From Actinomycetota bacterium (GTDB lineage Bacteria > Actinomycetota > Nitriliruptoria > Nitriliruptorales > Nitriliruptoraceae), in assembly GCA_019347575.1 (NCBI GenBank), contig JAHWKY010000005.1, positions 124,001-188,000 on the forward strand: a stretch of DNA of 64,000 bases, given 5' to 3'. The notes beneath the pieces are model-generated. The model did not search any database, was not told the DNA's origin, and saw only the letters and a program-made list of their open reading frames with translations. The position numbers were made by a program, and so were the translations under genes. This document shows positions 1,106 to 17,043 of this stretch, one piece after another; within the stretch, counting starts at the first letter, position 1; every line of letters begins with the position of its first letter.

Positions 1106-1831
1106 ATGATCCACGATGTCGACGAGTCGCTCAAGGCCCTGATCCGGCGCGATGTGCTGGACGGGGCCGACGTCGACCTGTCCTTCGAGGCGCCCACCAA
1201 GGAGTGGGCGGGAAAGCGGCAGCGCCCGACGCTGAGTGTCTTCCTGTACGACTTCCGTGAGGATCTGTCGCGGCGCTTCCACTCGCGCGAGGAAGTACGG
1301 AACGAGGCCGGGATCGTCATCGATCGTCCCGGACCGCCGCGCTTCTTCAAGATGAGCTACCTCGTCACCGCGTGGACGGAGCGAGCCGAGGACGAGCACC
1401 GCGTGCTGTCAGCCGTGCTGAACCAGTTCATGAAGTCGGACGCGATCCCGGCGGACGTCCTCGTCGGGACGCTGACCGAGTACCCGCGCCACGTCCGGGC
1501 CACGATCGCACTGCCGCCGCCACAGGATCGCTCGATCGCTGACATCTGGTCCGCACTGGGCGGCGAGCTCAAGCCGTCGCTCGACCTGGTCATCACCGCG
1601 CCCTTCCAACCCGAACGCCACTTCGAGTTCGGTCCGCCGGTCACCGGTGGCATCAGGGCCAAGCTGCTCGACACCGAGCGACGGACCGAGGAGATCAGCA
1701 AGCGGCGGGGCGCCGACACCGACGGGGACGGTATCCCCGACGACCTGTCCGGTCCGAGCGAGGAGTTCGCGCTCGAGTTCAGCCCGGAGGGAGAGTCCTC
1801 CCGCACCCCGATGGGGACACGCGAGCCGTGA
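1106..1831 (+). CDS. DUF4255 (Pvc16-type) contractile injection system cap/terminator protein
   Basis: A 241-residue protein beginning MIHDVDESLKALIRRD, the usual opening of DUF4255 (Pvc16_N) proteins, followed by the conserved strands around RPTLSVFLYDFRED and the central YLVTAWT segment. Members of this family (Afp16/Pvc16) end or cap the tail tube and sheath in contractile injection systems. The C-terminal ~60 residues (TERRTEEISKRRGAD onward) are charged and probably a linker. It is the first gene of the CIS locus and overlaps the ATPase gene by 4 bp (GTGA). The ATG at 1106 is favoured; an in-frame TTG lies 9 bases upstream. The half-palindrome GGTTAC just before the start resembles the candidate operator sites further down the locus. 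Confidence 0.88.
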   Translation: MIHDVDESLKALIRRDVLDGADVDLSFEAPTKEWAGKRQRPTLSVFLYDFREDLSRRFHSREEVRNEAGIVIDRPGPPRFFKMSYLVTAWTERAEDEHRVLSAVLNQFMKSDAIPADVLVGTLTEYPRHVRATIALPPPQDRSIADIWSALGGELKPSLDLVITAPFQPERHFEFGPPVTGGIRAKLLDTERRTEEISKRRGADTDGDGIPDDLSGPSEEFALEFSPEGESSRTPMGTREP

Positions 1832-3927
1832 CCGTGGCGATGGACGCCTCCCTGACCTACCTCCACCACCGGCTCGCGCTCCTCGAAGCGCGCGTCCGTG
1901 CGGCGGTCGCGCAGCGGCGGGTCGACGACCCCGTCCCCGACGATCGCTTCCGGGGGTTGTACCTCTCGGACGCCCAGGTCGACGCCATCCTCGAGGAGTC
2001 GGGGCGCCTGTTGCGCCCCGCCATCCCCGAGCCCGAGACCTCCGAGGCTCAGGAGCGCATCGAGAAGGAAGCTGATGCGGCCGAGTCCGCAGGCGAGGTC
2101 GTCCGTCTCCGGGAGCTCGCGCGTCGTTTCGACCTCGCCGAGCTCGACGTCGACATCCTGCTGGTCGCGATCGCTCCCGATCTCGATCCACGGTTCGAGC
2201 CTCTCTACGGGTACCTGCACGATGACGTCACACGGCGGCGAGCCAGCACCGGGCTCGCCCTCGAACTGATCGGCCGAGGGACGGGTGCCGGCGAGGCACG
2301 CGGGCGCTTCAACGCCGACGGGCGTCTCGTGGGTAGCGGCCTGCTCGTCGTGGAGGAGACGGAGCGGCCCTTCCTCACCCGCTCATTGCGCGTGCCGGAC
2401 CGGGTCACCTCTCACCTGCTCGGCGACGACACGCCCGATCCAGCGGTGGCCGCGCTCATGACCGACTGCACGCCGGCGGACATCGGTGACCGAGGCATGC
2501 TGGAACGGGTGCTGACCGAGCCTCGGGCGCTCGTGTACCTCAAGGAGCGCCCCGGGGCGGCATCGTTCTCGTTCGCGTCCTCGGCTCTGGAGGCGGTCGG
2601 ACGGCCCTGGATCGCCCTCGACCTGCACCGGCTCGATCCCACCGACGATCCATGCGAGATCGCCGCCGCCGCGGCGCGGGAAGCCAGGCTCATCGGCGGG
2701 GCGGTCGTGGCCGGGCCTGTCGATGACATCGCCGAACGGGAGGGCAAAGGCGTCCGGTGCTTCGCCGAGCTGCGCTGCCCGACGGTGCTGGTCGGTACCA
2801 AGGGCTGGGACCCGATGTGGTCACGGGACGTCCCGCTGCTCCTCGACGCGCCGCGCCCGACGGTCGAGCAGCGCGAGCGCATCTGGCGGTCGGCGCTGGA
2901 CGGTCACCTCCCCGGCGACGAGGTGGTCCGGGCCACCGCCGCGTTCCACCTCACCCCGGAGCAGGCCCAGCGGGCCGCGGTGGCGGCCGAGCAGTACGCA
3001 TCCGCGTCCTGCCGCCCGGTGGAGGTCCCCGACGTGCAGGCCGGTGCTCGTGCCCAGAACGCCGCGGGCCTGGAGCGCCTGGCGCGTCGCATCCGGCCCC
3101 GCGCGTTGTGGGAGGACCTCATCCTCAAGCCGAAGGTGGAGGAGCAGCTGCGCGAGCTGGTCGCCCGGGTCAAGCATCGCGCGACCGTCCTCGAGACGTG
3201 GCAGATGGGGGTGCGCTCGACCCGGGGGCGCGGCATCACGGGGCTCTTCGCGGGGGAGTCGGGGACCGGCAAGACGATGTCGGCGGAGGTGATCGCGGGT
3301 GCGCTCGGCCTCGACCTGTACGTGATCGACCTGTCGACCGTGGTAAGCAAGTACATCGGCGAGACCGAGAAGAACCTCGACCGCATCTTCGGGGAGGCCG
3401 ATCGGGTCAGCGGGGTCCTGCTCTTCGACGAGGCCGACGCCCTGTTCGGGAAGCGCTCGGAGGTCAAGGACGCCCACGATCGGTACGCCAACGTCGAGAC
3501 CGCCTACCTGCTGCAGCGCATGGAGCAGTTCGACGGCCTGGCGATCCTGACCACGAACCTGCGGAGCAACATCGACGAGGCGTTCACGCGCCGTCTGGAT
3601 GTCATCGTGGATATCCCCATCCCCGAGGAGCCGGATCGCCGGCGGCTGTGGGAGCTGTACGTCAGCAAGGGCATCCCTCTGGGTGACGACCTCGACCTCG
3701 ACTTCCTCGCGGGCTCCTTCGAGGTCGCGGGAGGCAACATCCGCAACATCGTCGTCACGAGCGCCTACCTAGCCGCCGCTGACAGCACCCCCGTGACGAT
3801 GGGCCACCTCATCCGTGGCACCGAGCGGGAGTACCGCAAGCTGGGGCGGCTCTGCCTCGAGGACGACTTCGGTCCCTACTTCCACCTCGTAGCGAACGCC
3901 ACCCCTGTCCTGCCCGGCCTGTCCTGA
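1828..3927 (+). CDS. AAA+ ATPase of the contractile injection system (Afp15/Pvc15-type)
   Basis: A 699-residue protein. The C-terminal AAA+ domain has Walker A GESGTGKT (about residues 476-483), Walker B LLFDEADALF (about 531-540), a TTN sensor-1 element and the FTRRLD arginine finger near 588. The N-terminal ~430 residues form the helical domain plus a degenerate ATPase-like domain typical of the Afp15/Pvc15 group. These ATPases are core CIS proteins, proposed to act in particle assembly or cargo loading inside the producing cell. The GTG start overlaps the DUF4255 stop. A direct repeat of an unusual 26-bp unit begins on the base after the stop codon. Confidence 0.92.
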   Translation: MTVAMDASLTYLHHRLALLEARVRAAVAQRRVDDPVPDDRFRGLYLSDAQVDAILEESGRLLRPAIPEPETSEAQERIEKEADAAESAGEVVRLRELARRFDLAELDVDILLVAIAPDLDPRFEPLYGYLHDDVTRRRASTGLALELIGRGTGAGEARGRFNADGRLVGSGLLVVEETERPFLTRSLRVPDRVTSHLLGDDTPDPAVAALMTDCTPADIGDRGMLERVLTEPRALVYLKERPGAASFSFASSALEAVGRPWIALDLHRLDPTDDPCEIAAAAAREARLIGGAVVAGPVDDIAEREGKGVRCFAELRCPTVLVGTKGWDPMWSRDVPLLLDAPRPTVEQRERIWRSALDGHLPGDEVVRATAAFHLTPEQAQRAAVAAEQYASASCRPVEVPDVQAGARAQNAAGLERLARRIRPRALWEDLILKPKVEEQLRELVARVKHRATVLETWQMGVRSTRGRGITGLFAGESGTGKTMSAEVIAGALGLDLYVIDLSTVVSKYIGETEKNLDRIFGEADRVSGVLLFDEADALFGKRSEVKDAHDRYANVETAYLLQRMEQFDGLAILTTNLRSNIDEAFTRRLDVIVDIPIPEEPDRRRLWELYVSKGIPLGDDLDLDFLAGSFEVAGGNIRNIVVTSAYLAAADSTPVTMGHLIRGTEREYRKLGRLCLEDDFGPYFHLVANATPVLPGLS

Positions 3928-3987
3928 GTGCTCAAGTAGCGAAGCGGTAGCACAACACTGAGTGCTCAAGTAGCGAAGCGGTAGCAC
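3928..3987 (+). repeat. Two direct copies of a 26-bp dispersed unit
   Basis: Two identical 26-bp units at 3928-3953 and 3962-3987 (34-bp period) read GTGCTCAAGTAGCG then AAGCGGTAGCAC. The ends (GTGCT/AGCAC) are complementary, so each can form a short stem. Three copies of the same unit, differing at one base (A to G at position 8), lie at 41898-41995 on the other strand inside the mce operon, in the same orientation relative to transcription. The copies here lie directly between the ATPase stop codon and the next gene. I see no coding role at this site. Confidence 0.85.
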
Positions 3988-4134
3988 AGCACGAGAGGCT
4001 TGCCCTTTGGGGCAGACAGCGCTGCGCCCGTTATCGCTCGTTCTTCTCTTCCCTCGGGGCGGGACGCCAGGTAGACCTCGGAGCGAGGACGTGGAGGTGA
4101 GGCCCTGTCACGGTTCGCTGACCCGAGCCCCGAG

Positions 4135-4329
4135 ATGGTGGCACGAGCGACCCCCCACGCCCGCGCGCAGCGTGACGTCGGATCGGCGCACCAGCCTGGG
4201 CATGCGCACGACGCCCGCTCGTTGCTCCACCTGCAACGAGCAGCCGGCAACGCCGCGGTCTCGGCCCTACTATCCGTACAACGGTGTGGTGGCGAGAAGC
4301 ACGAGGGTTGTCCCTGCGCCGACTGCTGA
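4135..4329 (+). CDS. Small Cys-rich eCIS protein with LQRAAGNAAV motif
   Basis: A 64-residue frame, ATG at 4135, with residues 33-50 reading LQRAAGNAAVSALLSVQR and a Cys-rich tail (CGG..CPCADC). The same LQRAAGNAAV..LLQR signature occurs at residues 43-58 of the next gene product, a DUF4157 protein; I know it as an N-terminal signature of many DUF4157/eCIS-associated proteins. The start has only a weak purine-rich upstream site, which lowers confidence. It may be a stand-alone small component, a cargo-type adaptor, or a truncated DUF4157 protein that has lost its metalloprotease-like domain. The flanking 3988-4134 stretch shows no other gene. Confidence 0.55.
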   Translation: MVARATPHARAQRDVGSAHQPGHAHDARSLLHLQRAAGNAAVSALLSVQRCGGEKHEGCPCADC

Positions 4330-4368: not shown

Positions 4369-5160
4369 ATGTCTGACTTCCAGTTCGAGGACGTCGCTCG
4401 GGCGGCGCACGCGCACCGGCGCGACGAGCAGACGGACACCGACAAGACCAAGGACGCCGGCCCGGCCGGCGGACCCGCAGCGAAGATCCAGAGCCTGCAG
4501 CGAGCCGCGGGGAACGCGGCCGTGGGCCACCTGCTCCAGCGCGAGGAGGGGGCGGGCGCTGGGGCGGCATCCGTGAAGGACATCGTGGGCAAGGGCGGTG
4601 GCTCCCCCCTCCCCGAGGACGTCCGAGGCGAGATGGAGTCAGGCCTCGGGGCGGATCTCAGCGGCGTCCGCGTGCACACCGACAGCAAGGCGGACGAATC
4701 CGCCAAGGCCGTGAACGCCCACGCGTACACGTCGGGTAGCGACGTGGTCTTCCAGCAGGGCAAGTACGACCCGAGCTCGACCGATGGCAAGAAGACGCTC
4801 GCTCACGAGCTGACGCACGTCGTCCAGCAGAGCCAGGGCCCGGTCGACGGTACCTCGGTGGGCGGCGGGATCAAGGTCAGCGACCCCCACGACCGGTTCG
4901 AGCAGGAAGCTGACCAGGTCGCCGACGACGTCGTCAGCCGCCAGTCGGCGCAACCCGACGTGCAGCGTGAGGCGGCTCCGGAGGAGGAGGAGCCCGTGGC
5001 GGGCCAGTGGGTGCAGCGCGAGGCGGCTCCGGAGGAGGAGGAGCCCGTGGCGGGCCAGTGGGTGCAGCGCGAGGCGGCTCCGGAGGAGGAGGAGCCCGTG
5101 GCCGGACAGTGGGTCCAGCGCCAGGAGGATGAAGGCGAGATGGCCGAGGGCGAGGAGTAG
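4369..5160 (+). CDS. DUF4157 (eCIS core) protein with HExxH motif and acidic QR repeats
   Basis: A 263-residue protein with a strong ribosome site (GCAGGAGGG) before ATG 4369. Residues 43-58 carry LQRAAGNAAVGHLLQR. The DUF4157 domain (about 72-195) has the putative zinc motif HELTH at 146-150 and the downstream FEQEADQVAD helix that supplies the usual third acidic ligand. The C-terminus has three near-perfect 17-residue repeats (QREAAPEEEEPVAGQWV, 199-249) and ends QRQEDEGEMAEGEE. DUF4157 proteins are hallmark genes of eCIS loci; some are suspected proteases or loaded cargo, but their function is unproven. The strongly acidic tail makes it a good candidate for an unfolded, tube-associated protein. 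Confidence 0.88.
   Translation: MSDFQFEDVARAAHAHRRDEQTDTDKTKDAGPAGGPAAKIQSLQRAAGNAAVGHLLQREEGAGAGAASVKDIVGKGGGSPLPEDVRGEMESGLGADLSGVRVHTDSKADESAKAVNAHAYTSGSDVVFQQGKYDPSSTDGKKTLAHELTHVVQQSQGPVDGTSVGGGIKVSDPHDRFEQEADQVADDVVSRQSAQPDVQREAAPEEEEPVAGQWVQREAAPEEEEPVAGQWVQREAAPEEEEPVAGQWVQRQEDEGEMAEGEE
4963..5115 (+). repeat. Three 51-bp tandem repeats inside the DUF4157 gene
   Basis: Three in-frame 51-bp copies encode QREAAPEEEEPVAGQWV. The nucleotide copies are almost identical, differing mainly at third positions of the first and last copies. This points to recent duplication or ongoing homogenisation. Confidence 0.9.
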
Positions 5161-5178: not shown

Positions 5179-5212
5179 GTGAGCGCACCCTGCGGGGCGC
5201 GCTCACTGCTTT
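5179..5212 (+). terminator. Probable terminator after the DUF4157 gene
   Basis: A perfect 8-bp stem (GTGAGCGC 5179-5186 with GCGCTCAC 5199-5206) closes a 12-base loop and is followed by a short T-rich stretch (TGCTTTG). It lies 18 bp past the stop codon and separates the DUF4255-ATPase-DUF4157 block from the sheath operon. Confidence 0.6.
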
Positions 5213-5245
5213 GTGAGGGCCCGTTCGTTCGGCCGGTTGCCCGTT

Positions 5246-5265
5246 CGGGTAACCAGGGTTACCCG
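5246..5265. promoter_or_regulatory. Candidate operator: palindrome upstream of the sheath gene
   Basis: A perfect inverted repeat with 9-bp arms and a 2-bp spacer: CGGGTAACC, AG, GGTTACCCG. It lies 90 bp before the sheath start, in the gap after the terminator, where the promoter of the structural operon should be. The half-site GGTTACCCG recurs at 16331-16339 in front of the tail protein I gene, again within an inverted repeat. A regulator binding site is inferred. Confidence 0.45.
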
Positions 5266-5355
5266 GAGCCCGTCACCCGTAGACGTAGCCCTGAGAGGTC
5301 CTGTGCGCGACCCTCTCGGTGCGGTCTTCCAACGCCAGGGAGAGGAGAAAGACCC

Positions 5356-6885
5356 ATGCCCAACTATCTCTCGCCAGGCGTGTACGTCGAGGAGGTCGAC
5401 GGCGGTGCGCGTCCGATCGAAGGCGTCGGCACAGCCGTCGCTGCCTTCATCGGTACCGCTCCGAAGGGTCCGGTCAACCAGCCGGTCCTCGTCACCAACT
5501 GGAGCCAGTACACGCAGATCTTCGGGGAGTTCATGGAGGGTTCGTACCTCGATGACGCCGTTTACGGCTACTTCCTGAACGGCGGCGGCGCGGCGTACAT
5601 CGTCCGCGTCGGGGGTGACGGCGCGGCCAAGAAGGCGGCCGGCGCCCTCCCCGCACCCAAGGATGCCGAGAAGGACCCCAAGGTCGGCCCCCTCGAGATC
5701 GAGGCGGTCGACGGCGGAGCCGACGGCAACGACATCACCGTTGAGGTCGCCGACCCCACCGACAAGGACGAGAAGGGCGAGAACTTCAAGCTCGTCGTCA
5801 AGGTCGGCGGCAAGGTGGAGGAGGAGTACGACAACCTCAACGCCGACACTGCAGTTCGCACCGTCAACGCGAAGTCCAAGCTGATCAAGCTGGCTTCGCC
5901 CACCGGCGCCAAGGCGATCGCCCCGACCAAGGGTGCGGTCAAGCTGGCGGGTGGCGGTGTTTCGGAGCCTGCCCGGCTCGCTCCCGACGACTACATCGGC
6001 AGCTCGGCCGACCGCACGGGTTTCGGCGGTCTCGAGGCGGTCGACGAGATCACCATGCTGGCATGCCCCGACCTGATGGCGGCGTACCAGACCGGTCTCA
6101 TCGACCTCGAGGGCGTGCAGGCCGTGCAGCTCGCGATGATCGCGCACTGCGAGGCGATGGGTGACCGGCTGGCCATCCTCGACCCGCCGCCCGGTCTCAA
6201 CGCGCAGCAGATCAAGGAGTGGCGCGTCGACAAGGCGGGCTACGACTCGAAGTACGCGGTGCTGTACTGGCCGTGGGTCAAGGTCTTCGACCCCGCGTCG
6301 GGCGAGAACATCTTCGTCCCGCCGAGCGGCCACATGGCCGGTATCTGGGGCCGCAACGACGACACTCGTGGGGTCCACAAGGCTCCCGCGAACGAGGTCG
6401 TCCGCGGAGCCATCGACCTCGAGCTGCGCATCACCAAGACCGAGCACGACCTGCTCAACCCCGAGGGCATCAACGTCATCCGTGCCTTCCCGGGGCGGGG
6501 CATCCGCGTGTGGGGCGCTCGCACCTTGTCGAGCGACCCGGCGTGGCGCTACGTGAACGTCCGGCGGCTCTTCAACTACCTGGAGGAGTCGATCCTGGGC
6601 GGCACGCAGTGGACCGTGTTCGAGCCCAACGACCACGCTCTGTGGGCGAAGATCCGGCGTGCCATCAGCGCCTTCCTCGTCATGGAGTGGCGCAAGGGCG
6701 CGCTGTTCGGGCTCACCCCGGGCGAGGCGTTCTACGTCAAGTGCGACGGTGAGAACAACACGGCCGAATCGATCGACGCCGGCATGGTGATCTGCGAGAT
6801 CGGGGTCGCTCCGGTGAAGCCGGCTGAGTTCGTGGTGTTCAAGCTGTCGCAGTTCTCGGGTGGCGCCTCGAGCGTCGAGGAGTGA
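5356..6885 (+). CDS. Contractile tail sheath protein
   Basis: A 509-residue protein beginning MPNYLSPGVYVEEVDGG, the standard opening of phage-type sheath proteins, after a strong GGGAGAGGAG ribosome site. The C-terminal domain has the conserved RVWGARTLSSDPAWRYVNVRR segment (about residues 382-402) and the helix-strand ending FVVFKLSQF that supplies the sheath-sheath handshake. Residues ~95-200 form an inserted, charged, probably surface-exposed domain. It polymerises around the inner tube and contracts to drive it forward. Only one sheath gene is visible, whereas Afp-type loci often carry two or three. First gene of the structural operon. Confidence 0.95.
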   Translation: MPNYLSPGVYVEEVDGGARPIEGVGTAVAAFIGTAPKGPVNQPVLVTNWSQYTQIFGEFMEGSYLDDAVYGYFLNGGGAAYIVRVGGDGAAKKAAGALPAPKDAEKDPKVGPLEIEAVDGGADGNDITVEVADPTDKDEKGENFKLVVKVGGKVEEEYDNLNADTAVRTVNAKSKLIKLASPTGAKAIAPTKGAVKLAGGGVSEPARLAPDDYIGSSADRTGFGGLEAVDEITMLACPDLMAAYQTGLIDLEGVQAVQLAMIAHCEAMGDRLAILDPPPGLNAQQIKEWRVDKAGYDSKYAVLYWPWVKVFDPASGENIFVPPSGHMAGIWGRNDDTRGVHKAPANEVVRGAIDLELRITKTEHDLLNPEGINVIRAFPGRGIRVWGARTLSSDPAWRYVNVRRLFNYLEESILGGTQWTVFEPNDHALWAKIRRAISAFLVMEWRKGALFGLTPGEAFYVKCDGENNTAESIDAGMVICEIGVAPVKPAEFVVFKLSQFSGGASSVEE

Positions 6886-6920: not shown

Positions 6921-7364
6921 ATGCCACTGCCAGATCTCGATACGAGTGTCGGCCACTCCTTCGGACTCGAGTTCGATGGCGTGATGATCAAGCAGATCCA
7001 GGAGGTCTCCGGCCTCAAGATGGAGCAGGACGTCATCGAGCTCAAGCAGAACACGTTCGATGGCAAGTACATGATCAAGAAGCTGCCGGGTCGTTGGAAG
7101 GCCGGTGAGCTCACGCTCACGCGCGGTCTGACCGACGACAACAGCTTCGAGGACTGGGTCAAGAACGCCCAGCTCGGCAAGATGGCCGACGCGCGCAAGA
7201 ACGGCGCGGTGATCGTGTACGACTACGAGGGCACCGAGATCCAGCGCTACACGATGACAAACGCGTGGGCGAAGAGTCTGGAGATCGGGACTCTCAAGGC
7301 GGGCGACACGAGCGTTCTCACCGAGAAGCTCACGCTCACCTTCGAAGAGATCGCGCCCGGGTGA
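6921..7364 (+). CDS. Inner tube protein (T4 gp19-like)
   Basis: A 147-residue protein with the gp19/Hcp-like pattern: FGLEFDGVMIKQIQEVSGL at the N-terminus, the LPGRWKAGELTLTRGL loop in the middle and a C-terminal LTEKLTLTFEEI strand. It is the main tube subunit that stacks as hexameric rings inside the sheath. A strong AGGAGGT site precedes the ATG, and the gene follows the sheath gene by 35 bp, as is usual in CIS loci. The stop overlaps the next start (TGATG). Confidence 0.93.
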   Translation: MPLPDLDTSVGHSFGLEFDGVMIKQIQEVSGLKMEQDVIELKQNTFDGKYMIKKLPGRWKAGELTLTRGLTDDNSFEDWVKNAQLGKMADARKNGAVIVYDYEGTEIQRYTMTNAWAKSLEIGTLKAGDTSVLTEKLTLTFEEIAPG

Positions 7365-7810
7365 TGCGCCGGACCTTCGCGGCCAACGAGGTCGCGCCGG
7401 ATGGCCCCGAGGCGTCGCTGCCCGAGGAGCCCACGGAGTCGCTCCGTACGGAGTTCGACTTCGTGTTGCCCCGCGGGTACGTCGACGCCTCGGGGGAGGT
7501 CCACCGCCGCGGGACGATGCGCCTCGCTACCGCACGCGACGAGCTCGTCGCGGCGAAGGACGATCGTGTCCGGGAGAACGCGGCGTACCTGTCCATCGTC
7601 CTGTTGGGACGCGTGGTCACGAGTTTCGGCAGTATCACGGACGTGCACGCCGGTGTGATCGAGAACATGTTCGCATCGGACGTCGCGTTCCTGCAGGACC
7701 TCTACCGACGGATCAACCAGGAGGGTCACACACGGGCGGCGGTGCGCTGTCCCGCGTGTGAACACGACTTCGCGGTCGATGTGGCCGGTGGTCGCCTGGG
7801 GGGATCGTGA
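7364..7810 (+). CDS. Conserved eCIS protein, tail-assembly-chaperone-like
   Basis: A 148-residue protein overlapping the tube stop by one base and the next gene by 4 bp, so tightly coupled. It begins with an acidic stretch (EVAPDGPEASLPEEP), followed by FDFVLPRGYVDASGEVHRRGTMRLATARDEL, a pattern seen in T4-like and CIS tail-assembly proteins just after the tube gene. It ends in a short RCPACEHDF element with one CxxC pair. Its position between tube and DUF6760 genes matches other eCIS loci. A role in folding or delivering tube or tape-like proteins is inferred from position only. Confidence 0.7.
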   Translation: MRRTFAANEVAPDGPEASLPEEPTESLRTEFDFVLPRGYVDASGEVHRRGTMRLATARDELVAAKDDRVRENAAYLSIVLLGRVVTSFGSITDVHAGVIENMFASDVAFLQDLYRRINQEGHTRAAVRCPACEHDFAVDVAGGRLGGS

Positions 7811-7968: not shown

Positions 7969-10746
7969 ATGTGGCCCTTCAGTCGGAGACAGCAGCGTGA
8001 GGCAGCCGGTGCGCGAGCGCCGGCCGCTCAACGACGTCCGGCTGAGGTCGCTGCACCGGACCCTGGTCCGACGCGCCCCGAGCCGGGGGAGTGGGCGCAG
8101 GCAGGGGTGCTGCAACGCGCGGTGAGGCCAGCACCGCTGACCCTCGAGCCCGACGCCTTCGAGGCCGGGCTCACGACGCGCCAGGACAGCTCTGTCGTGG
8201 GCGGACTCGGCCACGAGGTCTCGCCGAGCGCACCTTCCGGCATCGTGTCCGGCCTCGCCTCCGTGGCGGCACCGGATGAACCCCACCCCGACAGCCATGG
8301 GCCCGAGCTGGCCCTGCGGCGCGGCGGCGGCTCCGGGGGTGGATTCGCCGCAGCGCGCAAGGTCGACTACAGCGTCCAGCGCCGCCCCGGGTCGATCGCG
8401 ACCTCCGCTCCACCGTCGCCCCCACCCAGCCCCGGTCCCGAGTTCTCCACTCCGGAGCCTCCTCCGCGTGCGCTCCCGACGGCGCCCGCCCCGGCCGAGC
8501 ACCCGGTCACCTACGCGGAACCGCCGGACGAGCCTCGCCCCCTCCCGGTCGCGGAGCTGCCGCCTGTGACCGAGCTGCCTTCGGCCGAACCGTCGGGGGA
8601 GCCGGACGTGGCGGTTCCCGCCGACCCCGGTCCCGGACCCGCCGATGCACCCACGCTCGCGCAGCGGGCGCCTGTGGACGATGCCGATGACGCATCGGCG
8701 CCGATAGGGGTAGGGGATCCGCCTGCGTCGGAGCTACAACGCGCCGTCGACGAGCCGTCGCTGCCGCTGGCCGCACCACCGACGCCGCCACGAGACCGCA
8801 CGCAGCGCCGCGTGGGGCTCGGTGAGCCGATGCGTGAGATCCCGTCCCCGGCGTCCCCATCCGTGCAGCGGTCGACGTCTCCGCCCGCGCCGTCGCCTTC
8901 GCCGTCCACGCCATCGCCGCCGCGGCCCGCCTCCCCACCAGCCCCCGCGACCGTTCAACGGTCGGTCGATGCCGTGCACGACCCCGCGGAAGAGGCCACG
9001 CCGGGAGGGGCGGAGGCAGTGGAACCGTCCCAGGCTGCGTTGCTCGGAGCCGACGCCGAGGCGGAAGGGCCTGACGACGACCCGGCCGCGGACGTGACGC
9101 CCCACTCCGAGGAGAGCCCGGCTGGGGAGGTCGACGTCCCCCCACTGCCTCTCGCCGGGACACAACGGGCCAAGGCGACGCCCCGGGACCGTGAGGACGA
9201 GGGCGGAGCCTCCGGCGGCGAGGCCTTCGCTCCGTTGTTGGGTAGCGAGACGCCACCGAGTGCTCCCGAGACTCTGGCGACCAGCGACCCCGAACCGACC
9301 GCGGGTGGTGCCCCCGAACCGACCGCAGGACGTGATGCCGAGCCCGAGCTGCCGTTGGGTGTCCAGCGAGCCCCGACGGGCTCCTCCTCGGCCTCGCCGT
9401 CATCCGCCCCATCGACGGATGCGTCTGCAGCGATCCCCCCGGCCGACACCCAGCCACCCGACCGTGGTGATCCGGGCGACCTTGGCGAGTCCGGTCCGCC
9501 GCCGACCTCTCCGCTCCTGGGCAGCGACGTCGACCTGACCGTCACCGACGGTGAAGGGCCGGGGGTGGGACCGGCCGACGGCACCGATGGAGCGGAACCT
9601 GGTGAGGCTGCACCGCTACCGCTCGCGAGCCAGCGCGCGGCTGAGGGCGCTGGTGCCTCCCACCGCTCGGGCCCCTCCTCCTGGCCCCAGACCGCTCCGC
9701 TCCTGGGCGATCTGCCCGGTCCAGGCGCGCCGTCGGCGCTTGCAACCGGGCTCACGGCGCCTCACTCACCGGCCGTGTCAGCGGTCCAGCTAGCGGCCGA
9801 TGCTGGCCCCGCGACGCGCGCCTCACTCCGGTCGACGCCGTCTGGCCCGATCGCGCCGTTGCTGCACGCACGCGCGACGCCGTTGGCACAGAGAGCTCCC
9901 GGCCCGCCGTCGCCCGCACATCCGACCGGTCCCGCGGTGCGCTCCGAAGCTGCGCCCGCAGCCGTGGTGCAGCGCGTCGCGGAGGCGACCGGCGCCGACC
10001 TCGGCGGGGTCAGCGTGCAGCGGGGCGTCGAGGTCGGCCGCAGTGCCAGCGCGATGTCGGCCAAGGCGTACACGACGGGTGGTCAGGTCCACCTGCCCGA
10101 TCGCCACGGCTCGATGAGCTCGGGTGAGGGGGAGAGCCTGGTGGCTCACGAGCTGACCCACGTGGCGCAGCAGCGCGCGCTGGGCGGTGCGCTGCCGGGA
10201 GAGGACACCCCTCTGGGGCAGGAGCTCGAGCTGCAGGCGCAACACGTCGAACGGTCCGTCGTCGAGGGAAAGCCGTTGCCACTGGCGGTCCCGAGCACCG
10301 GCCACACGCTCCAACGTTCCGCGCAGCCCTCCGGCCACGCATCAGCAGGCCGTGGTGCCTCGACCTCGCCGCCCAACCCAGCGGCGTTCGCGGTCGCCAA
10401 CGGCCTGGGGACGCCGACGGCGGACGGCGGGGTCGTCTTCCACGCCGCGATGGACGCTGGAGTCCTCGCGTCGGTCACCGAACCGACCGACGCGCACGTG
10501 CAGCGCGCCACCGAGGATGCGGCTGCTGCGACCGCCGTCCAGCGCTTCATCGGGAAGGTCCCGCCACCCGTGACGGCTCTGAGCTCGACGGCGGCGTCCG
10601 CCAGCGCGATGGCCGTAGGAGCAGCATCGGGAGGTGCCGCCGGCGGCGCGGAGGACGTCGAGAAGATCGTCGATCGCGTGATCACGCGTCTGCGTACCGA
10701 GTTGTCGCTCAACCGCGAGCGTCTCGGCCGCAGCCTGGACCTGTAG
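7969..10746 (+). CDS. Giant disordered DUF4157 protein with repeated QR motifs (tape-measure/cargo candidate)
   Basis: A 925-residue protein rich in Pro, Ala, Ser, Glu and Asp. Residues 45 to about 660 look unfolded and contain degenerate modules that open with (P/A)LLG(S/A) and close with LPLA/LPLG followed by xQRA. Sixteen spaced xQR motifs (VLQRAV, SVQRRP, LAQRAP, ELQRAV and others) run along the chain. A DUF4157 domain with HELTH (727-731) occupies about 665-755. The C-terminus (from about 890) is an amphipathic helix, EKIVDRVITRLRTEL. It lies between the tail-assembly genes and the second tube protein, where a tape measure could sit; no other tape measure is visible. It may set tube length, fill the lumen as cargo, or act as a protease. 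All three are inference. Confidence 0.75.
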   Translation: MWPFSRRQQREAAGARAPAAQRRPAEVAAPDPGPTRPEPGEWAQAGVLQRAVRPAPLTLEPDAFEAGLTTRQDSSVVGGLGHEVSPSAPSGIVSGLASVAAPDEPHPDSHGPELALRRGGGSGGGFAAARKVDYSVQRRPGSIATSAPPSPPPSPGPEFSTPEPPPRALPTAPAPAEHPVTYAEPPDEPRPLPVAELPPVTELPSAEPSGEPDVAVPADPGPGPADAPTLAQRAPVDDADDASAPIGVGDPPASELQRAVDEPSLPLAAPPTPPRDRTQRRVGLGEPMREIPSPASPSVQRSTSPPAPSPSPSTPSPPRPASPPAPATVQRSVDAVHDPAEEATPGGAEAVEPSQAALLGADAEAEGPDDDPAADVTPHSEESPAGEVDVPPLPLAGTQRAKATPRDREDEGGASGGEAFAPLLGSETPPSAPETLATSDPEPTAGGAPEPTAGRDAEPELPLGVQRAPTGSSSASPSSAPSTDASAAIPPADTQPPDRGDPGDLGESGPPPTSPLLGSDVDLTVTDGEGPGVGPADGTDGAEPGEAAPLPLASQRAAEGAGASHRSGPSSWPQTAPLLGDLPGPGAPSALATGLTAPHSPAVSAVQLAADAGPATRASLRSTPSGPIAPLLHARATPLAQRAPGPPSPAHPTGPAVRSEAAPAAVVQRVAEATGADLGGVSVQRGVEVGRSASAMSAKAYTTGGQVHLPDRHGSMSSGEGESLVAHELTHVAQQRALGGALPGEDTPLGQELELQAQHVERSVVEGKPLPLAVPSTGHTLQRSAQPSGHASAGRGASTSPPNPAAFAVANGLGTPTADGGVVFHAAMDAGVLASVTEPTDAHVQRATEDAAAATAVQRFIGKVPPPVTALSSTAASASAMAVGAASGGAAGGAEDVEKIVDRVITRLRTELSLNRERLGRSLDL

Positions 10747-10756
10747 GAGGACGAAC

Positions 10757-11254
10757 ATGGTCGGACCGACGATCGCCACGAGTCATAGCGTCGCGCAGCC
10801 GAACGCGTCCACGGAGACCGAGATGGACCCCGCCGTCACGGTCGGGTTCGCGATCGAGATCGACGGCCACAAACTCGGCGTGTTCACGTCGGTCGATGGC
10901 CTGTCGTTCGAGATCACGCTCGAGCCGGTGACCGAGGGCGGCAACAACGCCTTCGTCCATCAGCTCCCCGGACGCGTCAAGTACCAGAACATCAAGCTCA
11001 AGCGCCCGCTCAACAAAGACAGCCAGGTCGTCGTCGACTGGTTCCAGAAGCTCATCCGTGAGATGAACCAGGGGAAGGCCACACGATCGACCATGAAGAT
11101 CACGGCGAAGAACACCGCTGGCGATGACGTCGCGACCTGGAACCTCCAGGGAGTGATCCCGGTGAAGTGGCAGGGTCCGTCGATGAGCGTCGAGTCGAGC
11201 AAGGTCGCCGAGGAGACGCTCGAGCTTGCGCACCACGGGTTCCTAGAGAGCTGA
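10757..11254 (+). CDS. Second tube-type protein (gp19 family, tube initiator candidate)
   Basis: A 165-residue protein with ATG at 10757 after a clear TAGGAGG site. It shows the gp19 fold pattern (VGFAIEIDGHKLGVFTSVDGL, then QLPGRVKYQNIKLKRPL, then a C-terminal VAEETLELAHHGF strand) but has a longer N-terminal extension than the main tube protein at 6921. Two tube-like proteins are usual in CIS loci; the one next to the LysM and VgrG genes (Afp5-like) generally joins the tube to the spike. The same role is inferred here. Confidence 0.88.
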   Translation: MVGPTIATSHSVAQPNASTETEMDPAVTVGFAIEIDGHKLGVFTSVDGLSFEITLEPVTEGGNNAFVHQLPGRVKYQNIKLKRPLNKDSQVVVDWFQKLIREMNQGKATRSTMKITAKNTAGDDVATWNLQGVIPVKWQGPSMSVESSKVAEETLELAHHGFLES

Positions 11255-11265
11255 GGGAGGACACC

Positions 11266-11985
11266 ATGGCGAGCTACGAGAAGGCCTACCTCGACATCTG
11301 CGAGCCGGCGACGACGTCCGGGGGCGGGACGGGGTCGAACAACCAGCGGCGGCCTGGCAGCAGCATCCGCCTGCTCAAGTTCCAGTTCAACCCCGAGAAG
11401 CTGTCGATCAAGAAGGAGGCGGAGTGGAAGCCGGCTAGCCAGGAAGGGGCCGAGGCCACCCCGTTCCCGCAGTACAAGAGCCCCAAGCCGGTCAGCCTGA
11501 GCCTCGACATGCTCCTCGACGCCGCCCACTCGCCCAGTAACGACATCGTCGGGGACATCGACGCACTCCTGGGCTGCCTGGTGCCGACGAGCCGCTCCCG
11601 CAGCCAGGGCACGCCTCACCCGCCACTGGTGAAGTTCGGCTGGGGGACCAAGTTGACCCTGACCGCGTACGTGACATCGGTCTCTACCGAGTACCAGCTC
11701 TTCCAGCCCAACGGCACACCGATCCGTGCCAAGTGCACCGTGGCCCTGAACGAGTACCCATCGACGAACCAGCGTCAGAACCCGACCTCGGGTGGCACGG
11801 CGACGCACACGACCCGCACGCTGCGTGCGGGTGACACGCTCGCCTCCGTCGCGTACGACGAGTACGGCAACGCCTCGCTCTGGCGGGGTCTGGCCCGTGC
11901 CAACGACATCGAGGATCCCCTGCGCGCGCCGGTGGGACTGTCGCTGCTGGTCCCGCCCAGCGATGAGGTGGAAGCGCTCTCGTGA
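11266..11985 (+). CDS. LysM-domain baseplate hub protein (Afp7-like)
   Basis: A 239-residue protein with ATG at 11266 after GGGAGGAC. The N-terminal two thirds (LLKFQFNPEKLSIKKEAEW and KVKFGW-type strands) match the CIS/phage protein that links the tube to the spike. The C-terminal ~55 residues form a LysM motif: RTLRAGDTLASVAYDEYGN, LWRGLARANDI, then GLSLLVP. This corresponds to the Afp7/gp53-like component; the LysM module may bind peptidoglycan or only act as a fold in the hub. Overlaps the VgrG-like gene by 4 bp. Confidence 0.87.
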   Translation: MASYEKAYLDICEPATTSGGGTGSNNQRRPGSSIRLLKFQFNPEKLSIKKEAEWKPASQEGAEATPFPQYKSPKPVSLSLDMLLDAAHSPSNDIVGDIDALLGCLVPTSRSRSQGTPHPPLVKFGWGTKLTLTAYVTSVSTEYQLFQPNGTPIRAKCTVALNEYPSTNQRQNPTSGGTATHTTRTLRAGDTLASVAYDEYGNASLWRGLARANDIEDPLRAPVGLSLLVPPSDEVEALS

Positions 11986-13877
11986 CCCAGACCCCGTTCA
12001 AGATCAAGCTCGGCGGCGCCGAGCTCGATGCGACGCTGCACTCGATGCTCCAGCGCGTCACCGTCGACGACACGCTCGACATCCCCTCGTTCTTCGCCCT
12101 GGCCTTCCGCGACTCGACCCGCACGATCCTCAAGGACGCGAAGTTCAAGATCGGTGACGAGGCCGAGGTACACGTCAAGGTCGGTGGTGGGAGCTGGGAG
12201 AAGCTGTTCCACGGCGAGATCACCGCACTCGAGCTCGACCAACCCGAAGGCGACGCCTCGACGACCATCGTTCGCGGGTACGACCCCAGTCACCGCCTCC
12301 ACGGACAGGCCAAGACGAAGGCGTTCCTGAACAAGAGCTACGACGCCATCGTCAAGGAGGTGCTCGGCGCGGTCGGCGCCAAGCCAGGCAAGATCGAGGC
12401 CCCGCCCGGTAAGGCGCCGGAGTCGGTCTCGCAGCTCGGTCAGACCGACTGGGAGTTCCTGCGTCGGATCGCTCGTCTGTCGGGCATGGTGCTGGACGTG
12501 AAGGACGGCAAGATCGACTTCACCGCCCCGCCCTCCGCGGACAAGGCCGGCTCGCCGGCGAGGAGCTACGACCAGACCGAGGCACTCGAGATCAAGCTCG
12601 GGGCGAACGTCGTGCAGCTCCGCGCGGTCGTCACGGCAGGTGGGCAGGTGAAGGAGGTCGAGGTCCGCGGTTGGGACCCCAAGGCCAAGAAGGAGCTGAA
12701 GCAGACCGCACCGGTCAAGACCGACTCGGTGAAGGTGGGCTTGAAGCCCGACGAGCTGGCGGGCAAGTTCAACGCGGCGAAGTACGTGGCGTCCGGGGAC
12801 GCCTACACCAGCCAGGACGAGGTCAAGGCTGCCGCCAAAGCGCTCGCGGACCAGATCGCGTCTGCCCACGCCGAGCTCGACGGGGTGGTCGAGGGAAACC
12901 CCAAGTTCAGGGCCGGGGTCGCGGTTGCGCTCGGGAACGCCGGCAAGCCGTTCGAGGGCAAGTACACCCTGACGGCGGTCCAGCACCTCTACTCACCGTC
13001 ACGCGGCTACCAGACCGCCTTCCGGGTCAGCGGCAAGCAGGACCGGTCCCTGTTCGCGCTGACGTCAGGTAGCGGCAACGGCACCCAGAACGGTGCATCG
13101 TCGACGGGCGCGGGCGTCGGCGTAACGATCGGCATCGTGACCGACATCAACGATCCCGAGAAGATCGGCCGCGTCAAGCTCAAGCTGCCGCGCTTCGACG
13201 ACACCTTCGTCTCGCCGTGGGCACGCGTCGTCTACGCCAGCGGCGGCAAGGGCGAGAAGGGCGCGCGGGGCTTCTTCGCCCCGCCGAAGGTCGATGACGA
13301 GGTGCTGGTCGCGTTCGAGCACGGCGACGTGAACGCGCCGATCGTGATCGGGGGTCTCTACAACGGCAAGGACAAGGGCGTCCCGGACGGCTACATCGAC
13401 AGCGGCAAGGGACGGACCAACGAGACCACGCTGACGTCGGACGTCGGTCACAAGATCCAGCTCAGTGACAAGGCCGGCGAGGAGGGGATCCTCATCGTCA
13501 GCGCCGACGACAAGATGCAGATCCACCTGTCCCAGAAGGACAAGAAGATCCTGATCAAGTGCGATCACCCGAGCGGTGTCGAGGTCATCACGACCGGCAC
13601 GACCACACTCAAGGCCGACAAAGACGTCAAGATGGAGACGCAGGCCAACTTCGAGCTCAAGACGTCAGGCAACATGAAGTTCGAGGCTGCGGGGAACATC
13701 GACATCAAGGCGAGCGGCAACCTCAAGGTCGAGGCGGGAGCCAACGCGAACTACAAGTCCGGAGCCAACACCGAGATCAGCGCTGGCGCGAACCTGACTG
13801 CGAAGGCGGGTGCGCTGGGTGAGTTCAGCGCCACTGGAGCCTGCACGATCAAGGGCGCTGTGGTCAAGATCAACTGA
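11982..13877 (+). CDS. VgrG-like spike protein (gp27-gp5 fusion, Afp8-type)
   Basis: A 631-residue protein. The N-terminal ~330 residues match the gp27-like hub (DTLDIPSFFALAFRD, VRGYDPSHRLHGQ, LGQTDWEFLRRIARLSG). Residues ~383-470 are the OB-fold (IGIVTDINDPEKIGRVKLKLP, SPWARVVYASGG, GDVNAPIVIGGLYNG). The C-terminus is a repetitive beta-helix of short Lys/Gly-rich strands (TTTLKADKDVKMET, NMKFEAAGNIDIKASG) ending KGAVVKIN. It forms the trimeric spike under the tube. No toxin domain is fused to the C-terminus. No PAAR gene follows, which is unusual for this position. Confidence 0.93.
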   Translation: MTQTPFKIKLGGAELDATLHSMLQRVTVDDTLDIPSFFALAFRDSTRTILKDAKFKIGDEAEVHVKVGGGSWEKLFHGEITALELDQPEGDASTTIVRGYDPSHRLHGQAKTKAFLNKSYDAIVKEVLGAVGAKPGKIEAPPGKAPESVSQLGQTDWEFLRRIARLSGMVLDVKDGKIDFTAPPSADKAGSPARSYDQTEALEIKLGANVVQLRAVVTAGGQVKEVEVRGWDPKAKKELKQTAPVKTDSVKVGLKPDELAGKFNAAKYVASGDAYTSQDEVKAAAKALADQIASAHAELDGVVEGNPKFRAGVAVALGNAGKPFEGKYTLTAVQHLYSPSRGYQTAFRVSGKQDRSLFALTSGSGNGTQNGASSTGAGVGVTIGIVTDINDPEKIGRVKLKLPRFDDTFVSPWARVVYASGGKGEKGARGFFAPPKVDDEVLVAFEHGDVNAPIVIGGLYNGKDKGVPDGYIDSGKGRTNETTLTSDVGHKIQLSDKAGEEGILIVSADDKMQIHLSQKDKKILIKCDHPSGVEVITTGTTTLKADKDVKMETQANFELKTSGNMKFEAAGNIDIKASGNLKVEAGANANYKSGANTEISAGANLTAKAGALGEFSATGACTIKGAVVKIN

Positions 13878-13912: not shown

Positions 13913-14386
13913 GTGGGCACGGAGTTCATCGGCCAGGGCTGGGGCTTCCCGGTATCGGTCGACGACACCGGTGGGATCAAGCTCGTCTCTGGCTCCCAGG
14001 AGATCGAGCAGGCGATGAGGCTCATCCTGGGCACGGCGTACGGGGAGCGCCCGATGCGCCCCGAGTTCGGGTGTGGGATCCACGACTACGTTTTCGCCCC
14101 CGCCGACGACACGACCGCCGGCCGTATCGCCTACGAGGTCCGCGAGTCGCTGCGACGGTGGGAGCCCCGCATCGAGGTCAAGGACGTCGAGGTCGAGATC
14201 GACCCCCAGGATGCGTCGATCCTCTACATCGAGATCAAGTACGCGCTCCGCGGAGAGAACGACCCCCGCAACCTGGTCTTCCCCTTCTACACCATCCCGT
14301 ACGAGGAAGGTGAGCCCGACGCGGCCGAGATCGCCGAGGGCATCGACAGCGGCACGCACCAACTGCAGCAAGGAGGGACGCTGTGA
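13913..14386 (+). CDS. Baseplate wedge protein, gp25-like
   Basis: A 157-residue protein, GTG at 13913 after AGGAGGTGAG. The gp25/lysozyme-like pattern is clear: EIEQAMRLILGTAYGERPMRPEFGCGIHDYVFAP in the middle, followed by VRESLRRWEPRI and the acidic VKDVEVEIDPQDASILYIEIKY strand. It belongs to the conserved gp25-gp6-gp7 baseplate core that triggers sheath contraction. The stop overlaps the baseplate J gene (GTGA). Confidence 0.93.
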   Translation: MGTEFIGQGWGFPVSVDDTGGIKLVSGSQEIEQAMRLILGTAYGERPMRPEFGCGIHDYVFAPADDTTAGRIAYEVRESLRRWEPRIEVKDVEVEIDPQDASILYIEIKYALRGENDPRNLVFPFYTIPYEEGEPDAAEIAEGIDSGTHQLQQGGTL

Positions 14387-16326
14387 GCCTGGAAGCCCCC
14401 AACCTCGACGACCGGCGCTTCCAGGGTCTGGTCGACGATGCCAAGCGCTACGTGCAGCAGCGCTGCCCCGAGTGGACCGACCACAACGTCTCGGACCCCG
14501 GAGTGACCCTGATCGAGACGTTCGCCTTCATGGCGGACCAGCTGGTCTACCGACTCAACCAGGTCCCCGACAAGATCTACACCAAGTTCCTCGACCTGCT
14601 CGACCTGCGTCTGTACCCGCCGGCCGCCGCCAAGGCGGATGTCACGTTCCGGTTGTCGGCTCCGCAGGAGGAGCCGGTCGTCATCCCACAGGGAACCGAG
14701 GTTGCCACGCCCCGGACGGACCTCGACGAGGCGGTGATCTTCCAGACGCTGCAACGTTTCGAGATCCAGCCCGCCAGCTTCCACCGTGCCGCCACACAGC
14801 GTCAGGGCGAGGACGCGGACGACAAGACGCGTGCGCTGCGCGGGAGCGGCTTCGATGCGTTCGGTGCGGAGCCCGCAGTCGGCGACACGATGATGATCGG
14901 TCTCGACAAGGCCATCCCCAACCACCTGCTCCACCTGCGGATGAGCTGCCAGATCGACGGCGTCGGCGTGGACCCGGAATGGCCACCGTTGGTGTGGGAA
15001 GCCTGGGTCGGCAAGGGCTGGGAGGAGTGCGACCTCGAGATCGACACCACCGGCGGACTGAACCGCGCCGGTGATCTCGAGCTGCACATCCCCGCGGCTC
15101 ACACGGAGTCGCTGGTCGCGGGCGAGAAGGCGGGATGGATCCGCTGCCGCGTGGTCCAGGCCGTCGAAGGGCAACCTCAGTACAGCGCGACCCCGAAGAT
15201 CGAGAGCATCGAGGCCGCGACGATCGGTGGGACGACGCGGGTGATCAACGCGGCGACGGTCGAGAACGAGGTCGTCGGCCTGTCCGAGGGCGTGCCGGGG
15301 CAGCGCTTCAAGCTCGAAACGACGCCCGTCGTCGCCGACAGCCTCCCGCTGGTGCTCGAGGTCGCCGCGGGATCCGGGTGGGACGAGTGGCGCCAGGTCC
15401 AGACCTTCGCGGAGTCGGGCCCCGATGACCGGGTGTTCATCGTCGATCCCGTCAACGGCGACCTCGCTTTCGGCCCCGCCGTACGGGAGCCCGACGGCTC
15501 GCTGACGCAGTACGGGGCGGTCCCCCCGAAGGGAGCCCCGATGCGCCTGAAGGCGTACCTGACCGGCGGTGGTCGTCACGGCAACGCCGAGGCCGGGAAG
15601 GTGACCATCCTCCGCGACTCCATCCCCTTCGTCACGTCGGTCAAGAACCGTTTCGCCGCTTCGGGCGGAGTCGACGCCGAGAGCCTCGACGACGCCAAGC
15701 GCCGCGGATCCGTGCTCCTGCGTACTCGCAACCGCGCGGTCACGGCCGAGGACTACGAGGCGCTGGCGCGGGAGTCGTCCCCGGAGGTCGCACGCATCCG
15801 AGCGGTCGCGGCAAGCGATGGGGCCGAGGCCGGGACGGTCCGGATGCTGGTGGTCCCGTCGGCGACCGACGAGAACGGCCGCCTCGGCTTCGAGCAGCTC
15901 ATCCCGGCCGACGAGACCCTCGAGCGCATCGCCATGTACCTCGACGAGCGCCGGACCATCGGAACGCGTGTCGTCGTGGAGCCTCCGGTCTACCAGGGCA
16001 TCCGCATCGACGCTCGCGTCAAGCTCCGCCCCGGTTCCAGCGGTGACCGCGTCAAGCGCGACGCCATCGCTGCCCTCTACCGCTACTACCACGCGCTGAT
16101 CGGGGGACCGGAGGGCGACGGCTGGCCCTTCGGACGCCCGATCCACGTGGGCGAGGTTCACTCGGTGCTGCAGCGGGTGGACGGCGTCGACTACGTCGTC
16201 GACGCGCTTCTGCGAGCAGCCGACCCCGTCAGCGGTGAGCTGTCGGACGCCATGCAGCGGATCGACATCGACACGCACGCGCTCGTGTTCTCCTACGAGC
16301 ACCAGATCCTGGTCGAGGGGGCATAA
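14383..16326 (+). CDS. Baseplate J-like wedge protein (gp6/Afp11-type)
   Basis: A 647-residue protein. It opens with the typical RYVQQRCPEWTDHNVSDPGVTLIETFAFMADQLVYRLNQVPDK block and has the baseplate J core near residues 390-560 (LTGGGRHGNAEAGKVTILRDSIPFV, RTRNRAVTAEDYEALARE, VMLVVPS-type strands). The C-terminal part (TRVVVEPPVYQGIRIDARVKL, then the VLQRVDGVDYVVDALLR segment) matches the Afp11 end. It builds the wedge ring linking sheath and hub. The upstream gp25 gene is translationally coupled. The stop codon TAA is part of a TAACC-GT-GGTTA palindrome. Confidence 0.93.
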   Translation: MSLEAPNLDDRRFQGLVDDAKRYVQQRCPEWTDHNVSDPGVTLIETFAFMADQLVYRLNQVPDKIYTKFLDLLDLRLYPPAAAKADVTFRLSAPQEEPVVIPQGTEVATPRTDLDEAVIFQTLQRFEIQPASFHRAATQRQGEDADDKTRALRGSGFDAFGAEPAVGDTMMIGLDKAIPNHLLHLRMSCQIDGVGVDPEWPPLVWEAWVGKGWEECDLEIDTTGGLNRAGDLELHIPAAHTESLVAGEKAGWIRCRVVQAVEGQPQYSATPKIESIEAATIGGTTRVINAATVENEVVGLSEGVPGQRFKLETTPVVADSLPLVLEVAAGSGWDEWRQVQTFAESGPDDRVFIVDPVNGDLAFGPAVREPDGSLTQYGAVPPKGAPMRLKAYLTGGGRHGNAEAGKVTILRDSIPFVTSVKNRFAASGGVDAESLDDAKRRGSVLLRTRNRAVTAEDYEALARESSPEVARIRAVAASDGAEAGTVRMLVVPSATDENGRLGFEQLIPADETLERIAMYLDERRTIGTRVVVEPPVYQGIRIDARVKLRPGSSGDRVKRDAIAALYRYYHALIGGPEGDGWPFGRPIHVGEVHSVLQRVDGVDYVVDALLRAADPVSGELSDAMQRIDIDTHALVFSYEHQILVEGA

Positions 16327-16503: not shown

Positions 16504-17043
16504 ATGCGGGGCGCACTAGACGGGTTGGCCAACCCGTTCCCCCTGGGGCTGATGCTTCCGGGGATGTTCCAGGGCGACGACTTCGTCCAGCGGTTCACCG
16601 CTGGGCTAGACGACGCGCTGGCGCCGATGCTGTCGACGCTCGACAACCTCGAGGCCTACTTCGACCCGGAGCTGGCGCCGAGCGACTTCGTCGCCTGGCT
16701 GTCGCAGTGGGTCGGCGTACCCGTCGACGAGGAGTGGTCCGACGAGCGGAAGCGCCAGGTCGTCGCACAGGCGGCCTCCCTCTACGGAAGGCAGGGCACC
16801 GTCGCGGGACTCCGCGACGTGATCGCCCTGTACACCGGTGCCGAGGTCGAGGTCGACGAGAACGGCGGCGTGGCGTGGTCCGCACTCCCCGGGGGCGAGT
16901 TCCCAGGTAGTCCGGAACCCAAGGTCAAGGTCACCATCCGTGCCTCCACCGACGAACCGGTGAACGCTGAGCGCGTCGAGCGGCTGGTCGCCGCCGCTGT
17001 GCCGGCGCACGTCCCGTTCGAGGTGGAGGTCCGCACCGGATGA
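16504..17043 (+). CDS. Phage tail protein I-like baseplate protein (Afp12-type)
   Basis: A 179-residue protein with a strong GAGGGAGGA site before ATG 16504. The sequence FVQRFTAGLDDALAPMLSTLDNLEAYFDPELAPSDFVAWLSQWVGV and the following SLYGRQGTVAGLRDVIALYTG are the signature of the tail protein I family (P2 gpI, Afp12). It is a peripheral baseplate/wedge component, in Afp-type systems the attachment point for fibres; no fibre gene is visible here. The stop overlaps the zinc-ribbon gene (ATGA). Confidence 0.9.
   Translation: MRGALDGLANPFPLGLMLPGMFQGDDFVQRFTAGLDDALAPMLSTLDNLEAYFDPELAPSDFVAWLSQWVGVPVDEEWSDERKRQVVAQAASLYGRQGTVAGLRDVIALYTGAEVEVDENGGVAWSALPGGEFPGSPEPKVKVTIRASTDEPVNAERVERLVAAAVPAHVPFEVEVRTG

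Follow-up and report, generated by a model that had tools for sequence, protein, structure and literature searches.

In tailed phages the tail assembly chaperone gene directly precedes the tape-measure gene. The C-terminal 20–35 residues of the tape measures of diffocin, 80alpha and T5 are held in the hub as trimers, and the diffocin protein has 817 aa for 32 layers and 1388 A (PMC11329794), from which we computed 25.5 aa per layer and 1.70 A per aa. For the CIS of Streptomyces, several groups state that the cluster contains no known tape-measure gene: Casu et al. and Nagakubo et al. describe a typical tape measure as lacking (PMC10066040, PMC10286715), and another report, which adds a single particle length, gives 60 tube layers for S. 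coelicolor with all particles identical and notes that "the corresponding gene is absent" (PMC12237407).

Tme (BN159_7576) of the Streptomyces davawensis CIS, previously linked to tape measures, is a protein of ~2247 aa that is ~70% disordered and combines an N-terminal DUF4157 domain with coiled coils, TM helices and a C-terminal endonuclease; its gene lies immediately upstream of the baseplate/tube-initiator genes (PMC11126660). In AlgoCIS, Cgo1 and Cgo2 carry a disordered N-terminal region, then DUF4157 and variable C-terminal effector domains, and they fill the tube lumen (PMC8894135). In the SLP of S. lividans, Sle1 has remote tape-measure homology and Sle2 is encoded just before the sheath; particles of the delta-sle1/2 mutant show no apparent structural defect (PMC13277306), so these proteins are probably not the ruler. 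Particles of delta-sco4256-4258 are otherwise WT-like, with a lumen that looks empty in ~85% (PMC10066040). Both sets of rival tape-measure candidates are weakened by these deletion phenotypes.

Here we analysed a 64-kb stretch of actinobacterial DNA (the window) with a CIS locus in which a 925-aa ORF (7969-10746, forward strand, ATG to stop) stands between the chaperone and tube-initiator genes. We read this protein as the occupant of the tape-measure slot in a type IId-like actinobacterial CIS; action as a tape measure is its most likely role, to which we give an even chance.

Gene order of the CIS locus

All genes of the locus named here lie on the forward strand. Upstream of the 925-aa ORF are encoded a cap or tail terminator (674-1831; Pvc16_N), a Cis15-like AAA+ ATPase (1828-3927), a small DUF4157 protein (4369-5160; PF13699 E=1.4e-33), the sheath (5179-6885; Phage_sheath_1 and 1C), an Afp1-like inner tube protein (6921-7364; Phage_T4_gp19) and a tail assembly chaperone-like protein with a C-terminal zinc-finger-like CPACEH (7364-7810; phrog_508). 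Downstream follow a second tube protein or tube initiator (Afp5-like, 10757-11254; Phage_T4_gp19), an Afp7-like LysM hub/tube protein (11167-11985; CIS_tube), a VgrG-like spike (11982-13877; Phage_base_V, Phage_GPD), a gp25-like baseplate protein (13913-14386; GPW_gp25), two baseplate wedges (Afp11-like, 14383-16326, Baseplate_J; Afp12-like, 16504-17043, Tail_P2_I) and a CisA-like membrane protein (17040-19052). This last protein has zinc ribbons and a long coiled coil of Ala, Glu and Arg, features that may set it apart from S. coelicolor CisA, as well as a probable TM segment and a C-terminal F5/8 C domain.

The 149-aa chaperone-like protein and five homologues all match phrog_508 'tail assembly chaperone' (6/6, E 2.5e-4 to 3e-8), with a Pfam Phage_TAC_7 match below threshold only. 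Among the cluster genes, Pfam found neither a tape-measure domain of known families nor a PAAR domain; the preliminary description was therefore right to call the tape measure missing, as far as known families are concerned.

The small DUF4157 protein has the position of Sle2, just before the sheath, and carries LQRAAGNAAV..LLQR together with QREAAPEEEEPVAGQWV repeats (4960-5125), so that the 17-residue QR-acidic repeat described for it earlier is real. Sle1 and Sle2 differ from the slot protein in both gene and position. Upstream of the small DUF4157 gene, a small ORF at 4135-4329 (forward strand) encodes an LQRAAGNAAVSALLSVQRCGGEKHEGCPCADC motif that combines a DUF4157-type N-terminal signature with a cysteine cluster, without a DUF4157 domain; it is perhaps a remnant, or else a mini-protein. 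Two copies (97% alike) of CTGAGTGCTCAAGTAGCGAAGCGGTAGCACAACA form a 34-bp direct repeat at 3924-3992, between the genes for the AAA+ ATPase and the small DUF4157 protein.

CIS loci were picked via the tube-initiator gene among 396 genomes of the phylum, and 13 further genomes were added through Streptomyces-group records matching the published SCO4253 primer sequence. The order in 25 actinobacterial CIS loci is sheath, tube, chaperone, long ORF, tube initiator, Afp7-like protein and VgrG, the sort order of the last two being swapped in one. Each locus has a single long disordered ORF of 687-1433 aa, flanked by the chaperone gene upstream and the tube initiator and hub genes downstream. The slot protein shares this gene position with phage and bacteriocin tape measures (diffocin CD1366, T4 gp29, lambda gpH; Afp14/Pvc14 in eCIS); Afp14 itself is encoded elsewhere in the Afp cluster.

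A 22-mer from the published SCO4253 probe primer matched 17 related loci, with no S. coelicolor record among them, and the 34-mer primer had no match in 393 Streptomyces genomes. By synteny, the S. coelicolor slot gene is expected at SCO4249 and/or SCO4250, flanked by SCO4248 (the tube initiator on the same criterion) and SCO4251 (likewise the chaperone).

A chain encoded here might also be a luminal carrier or cargo, which would be loaded into a tube of otherwise-set length, would carry or be an effector, and would use PVQRA as a lumen or loader address. This is the main rival to a tape measure, although we consider it rather unlikely. Tme, a loaded nuclease effector whose gene has this slot in another CIS type (PMC11126660), speaks for it, whereas the occurrence of one slot protein per system in a fixed position, unlike variable cargo genes, does not.

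Ends, middle and domains of the slot-protein family

The 925-aa protein is a mostly disordered Pro/Ala/Ser-rich chain (Pro 16%, Ala 17%) with 56 Arg, 6 Lys and 32 Gln, 19 of the Gln residues lying within QR. Neither a coiled coil nor a TM segment was recognised in it. AlphaFold2, run on residues 590-925, folds the DUF4157 core (pLDDT mostly >90) and a C-terminal helix (aa 893-924, pLDDT mostly ~90), and leaves much of the remainder below 50.

Both ends are conserved. The alignment defines an N-terminal module (7969-8277) with MWPFSRR..., GEWAQAGVLQRA and GLGHEVSPSAPSGIVSGL, which across the family reads MWPFxRR, WPWxRR or GFLDRLRGR, followed by W..LPP(I/L)QR and then by FGGRLPTWQNPSF or LGHxV..AP.G. 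The C-terminal helix module (aa 881-925, 10609-10746, ending ...VEKIVDRVITRLRTELSLNRERLGRSLDL) corresponds to a family module of ~45 aa, LDELARRLY.R....LR.ELR.DRER.GRL.D. Family searches used these two end modules as queries, and profiles built without the window sequence recover the 925-aa protein with E=1.5e-6 for the C-terminal and E=1e-9 for the N-terminal module. Leave-one-out statistics are good, not perfect: L048 escaped the N-terminal profile, and for L040 and L061, although recovered, another stretch ranked first. The slot proteins are a conserved family, for which we found no name.

Among 13 Streptomyces members, identity is 82% over the C-terminal 45 aa, 51% over the N-terminal 150 aa and 41% in the middle. 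In a subset of eight Streptomyces proteins the middle reaches 40%, compared to 35% for shuffled sequence, and is thus close to unconstrained. At E<=2e-5 the C-terminal module occurs in 17 of the 396 phylum genomes, with one match per genome, and all 17 also have a CIS tube-initiator match; the module is specific to CIS genomes. Two weaker matches (G073 and G046, E 9e-5 and 6e-4), in stretches without a recognised CIS gene, were taken as chance. Within Streptomyces, 140 of 296 genomes have a match.

This conservation bears on the carrier or cargo alternative as well, since effectors carry variable toxin domains at the C-terminus, which in the slot proteins is the most conserved part. In addition, no toxin or enzyme domain was found in the 925-aa protein or in ten homologues scanned. 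On the other hand, a signal reported for eCIS loading consists of an early aromatic residue followed by a basic and disordered stretch (PMC11297309); the MWPFSRR... N-terminus of the 925-aa protein resembles it, which speaks for a carrier or cargo and for the tape-measure reading alike.

The sole Pfam domain of the 925-aa protein is eCIS_core/DUF4157 (aa 663-737, 9955-10179; PF13699 E=1.6e-18, 67.1 bits against a cut-off of 22), with HExxH present as HELTH. Nine of ten homologues scanned have no DUF4157 match, nor any other Pfam domain; L048 has the domain, and L061 has it by profile. A close relative, L037, keeps both end modules and 13 QR sites without DUF4157. The domain is an optional, lineage-specific part of the slot protein that most members lack while the end modules persist, and is therefore not essential for the slot-protein role. 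DUF4157 as the core of the function was rejected on the same ground, and the earlier suggestion of a new role for DUF4157 proteins is not supported.

A function specific to this domain, in which a metalloprotease-like unit would act on chain or cargo, perhaps cutting at QR sites, with the chain as substrate or tether, is very improbable in our view. The HELTH motif and a core folded with pLDDT ~90 or more over most of its length agree with such an activity. Zn peptidases come up as the best PDB matches, though weakly and without significance (all E>0.3), and most homologues have the QR-rich chain without the domain. Docking of QR peptides on DUF4157 was likewise rejected: AlphaFold2, in monomer models only and hence as a weak test, places most QR segments in unfolded, low-confidence stretches and does not dock them on the core. 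Outside the CIS locus, contigs C33 and C35 of the same genome (G000) encode two mutually related DUF4157 proteins of ~1200 aa (L119, L120) with His-rich H..GETP.QHA.HAG repeats near the C-terminus.

Like Tme, the 925-aa protein is long, disordered and DUF4157-bearing, and its gene has the same position (PMC11126660). Its domain layout differs: DUF4157 lies towards the C-terminus, a nuclease is missing, and the chain ends in a conserved helix. No further domain was found after DUF4157, where eCIS-associated DUF4157 toxins have a toxin or enzyme domain. With Cgo1 and Cgo2 it shares a disordered N-terminal region ahead of DUF4157, but these proteins have variable C-terminal effector domains and are not known in the chaperone–tube initiator slot. 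Their filling of the AlgoCIS lumen supports a carrier or cargo, and it also means that lumen threading by disordered DUF4157 proteins, proposed as new in the preliminary description, has a precedent (PMC8894135).

In a second actinobacterial CIS type (L044, L046, L047, L052), a long protein that is disordered and often bears DUF4157 is instead encoded between tube initiator and Afp7; it ends LExRLxxxLERRGG. An hhalign probability of 50% between the C-termini is no more than suggestive of a possible distant relative of the slot family.

Distribution and spacing of the PVQRA motif

The 925-aa protein contains 19 QR dipeptides against 1.94 expected from composition, and the top count in 20,000 shuffles was 8. 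The array of sixteen xQR motifs noticed earlier is thus borne out; that count apparently covers QR after a small or hydrophobic residue, the remaining sites being RQQR, AQQR and TQRR. The LLG and LPLA marks are also present, with four copies each. An origin of the array as a DNA tandem repeat was rejected, as a DNA repeat search of it was negative.

In the 64-kb window, only the 925-aa ORF (11 [VIL]QR against 0.28 expected) and the small DUF4157 ORF at 4369-5160 (6 against 0.15) are clearly enriched; one antisense frame has 3 against 0.64. The consensus over homologues is P-x-V-Q-R-A, with V enriched 11.7-fold before Q, P 2-3-fold before V and A 2.4-fold after QR.

The gaps between QR sites are evener than random placement, both in the 925-aa protein (CV 0.62 vs 0.92, p=0.02) and across 21 homologues (mean CV 0.51 vs 0.92, P<1/2000). 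A common period was not found: a QR period matching the ring spacing was rejected (best Rayleigh 1.41 vs ~1 expected over 25 proteins), and the peaks of the 925-aa protein at 6.75 and 22.75 aa are not common to other members. With ~22 aa per ring, the median gap of 55 aa spans over two rings. L061 shows no QR enrichment, and in L058 and L051 it falls short of significance. Docking of the motifs to stacked tube rings is not borne out.

PVQRA or LQRA also occurs in small DUF4157 proteins, in a DUF4157 effector-like protein (L104) and in a 284-aa protein of L045. Since the motif recurs in DUF4157 cargo proteins, it may be a shared address. We infer that the distribution of PVQRA is better explained by a shared lumen or loader address than by a clasp on each ring; reading it as an address for cargo or loader is, at the least, equally good. 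A Sle1-like coiled-coil protein of S. violaceorubidus (L098:2-2593, reverse strand) has four [IVL]QR motifs at its N-terminus. The presence of the motif in DUF4157 cargo-type proteins and in this one Sle1-like protein near CIS loci again agrees with a carrier or cargo.

Chain length, tube lumen and the tape-measure reading

The slot-protein members near S. coelicolor have 1354 aa in S. coelicoflavus, 1300 in S. violaceorubidus, 1353 in S. ardesiacus and 1285 in one complete genome. Dividing the 1285-1356 aa of these relatives by 60 layers gives 21-23 aa per layer, and the same lengths over the 233 nm measured in situ give ~1.75 A per aa. Length and ring number are consistent with a tape measure, as a single point that combines one ring count with relatives' lengths; diffocin has 25.5 residues per ring, compared to ~22 here. 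For the 43 strong, untruncated Streptomyces matches the median length of the open frame is 1251 aa (SD 126), and this spread of ~10% may count against a ruler. So does L050, a CIS in the window's own family in which chaperone, tube initiator and Afp7 follow one another without a slot protein; a second CIS of the same genome (G226), L051, does have one.

Like phage and bacteriocin tape measures, the slot protein is a long chain with a conserved C-terminal helix, here a predicted one; no relative of known structure was found in the PDB. It differs from them in being a Pro/Ala/Ser-rich disordered chain instead of a coiled coil, with no TM region found and no homology to known tape measures detectable in Pfam or PHROGs. 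As known tape measures are very divergent, the missing homology lowers the case for common descent, not for common function.

The empty lumen of delta-sco4256-4258 particles, in which no slot gene is deleted, argues against a permanent luminal filament. In a mass spectrometry study of particles from S. coelicolor, SCO4251, 4242 and 4256 appear among the unknowns, and the slot product is left unnamed in the text (PMC10020575). Both the view of the lumen and MS could miss a thin disordered chain, the latter since the very low Lys content makes the chain a poor target; the negative data remain. They would suit an assembly adaptor that bridges chaperone, tube initiator and hub via PVQRA and then leaves, being absent from the mature particle and no ruler, and the DUF4157 protein Sle2 does bind the tube initiator SlpT2 (PMC13277306). 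We nevertheless hold an adaptor to be improbable, as it has no obvious need for a chain of 700-1400 aa, and its free middle would be expected to shrink.

Under the tape-measure reading, the chaperone encoded just upstream would keep the chain available, and the C-terminal helix of ~45 aa would anchor several copies in the hub or tube initiator. Tube rings would then polymerise around the extended chain until its N-terminal aromatic-basic end reaches the cap. The ruler would be intrinsically disordered, not a coiled coil. Through its PVQRA beads it may bind weakly, at many points, to the tube wall or to cargo or loader proteins bearing the same motif, and DUF4157 would be an optional, lineage-specific add-on. 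Whereas gene position, conserved ends, free middle, length range and motif statistics are observed, we infer hub anchoring, tube threading, length control and every QR contact. Position, a single copy in each system, conserved ends, free middle and length all agree with a tape measure and make the idea of the preliminary description plausible for the chain, though not for DUF4157, which most members lack.

A broader proposal holds that the missing ruler of type IId CIS is a disordered family with an aromatic-basic tip, a PVQRA middle and a hub helix, and that the PVQRA address is common to ruler, DUF4157 adaptor and cargo. We put this somewhat below an even chance. If PVQRA is indeed a shared address, it would be the first sequence code for what enters CIS tubes.

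As a candidate for the "absent" tape measure in actinobacterial CIS, the slot protein ranks first, and a named gene in a fixed slot makes the question of the missing ruler directly testable in laboratory strains. If the reading is true, a disordered chain, rather than a coiled coil, can set the length of a tube.
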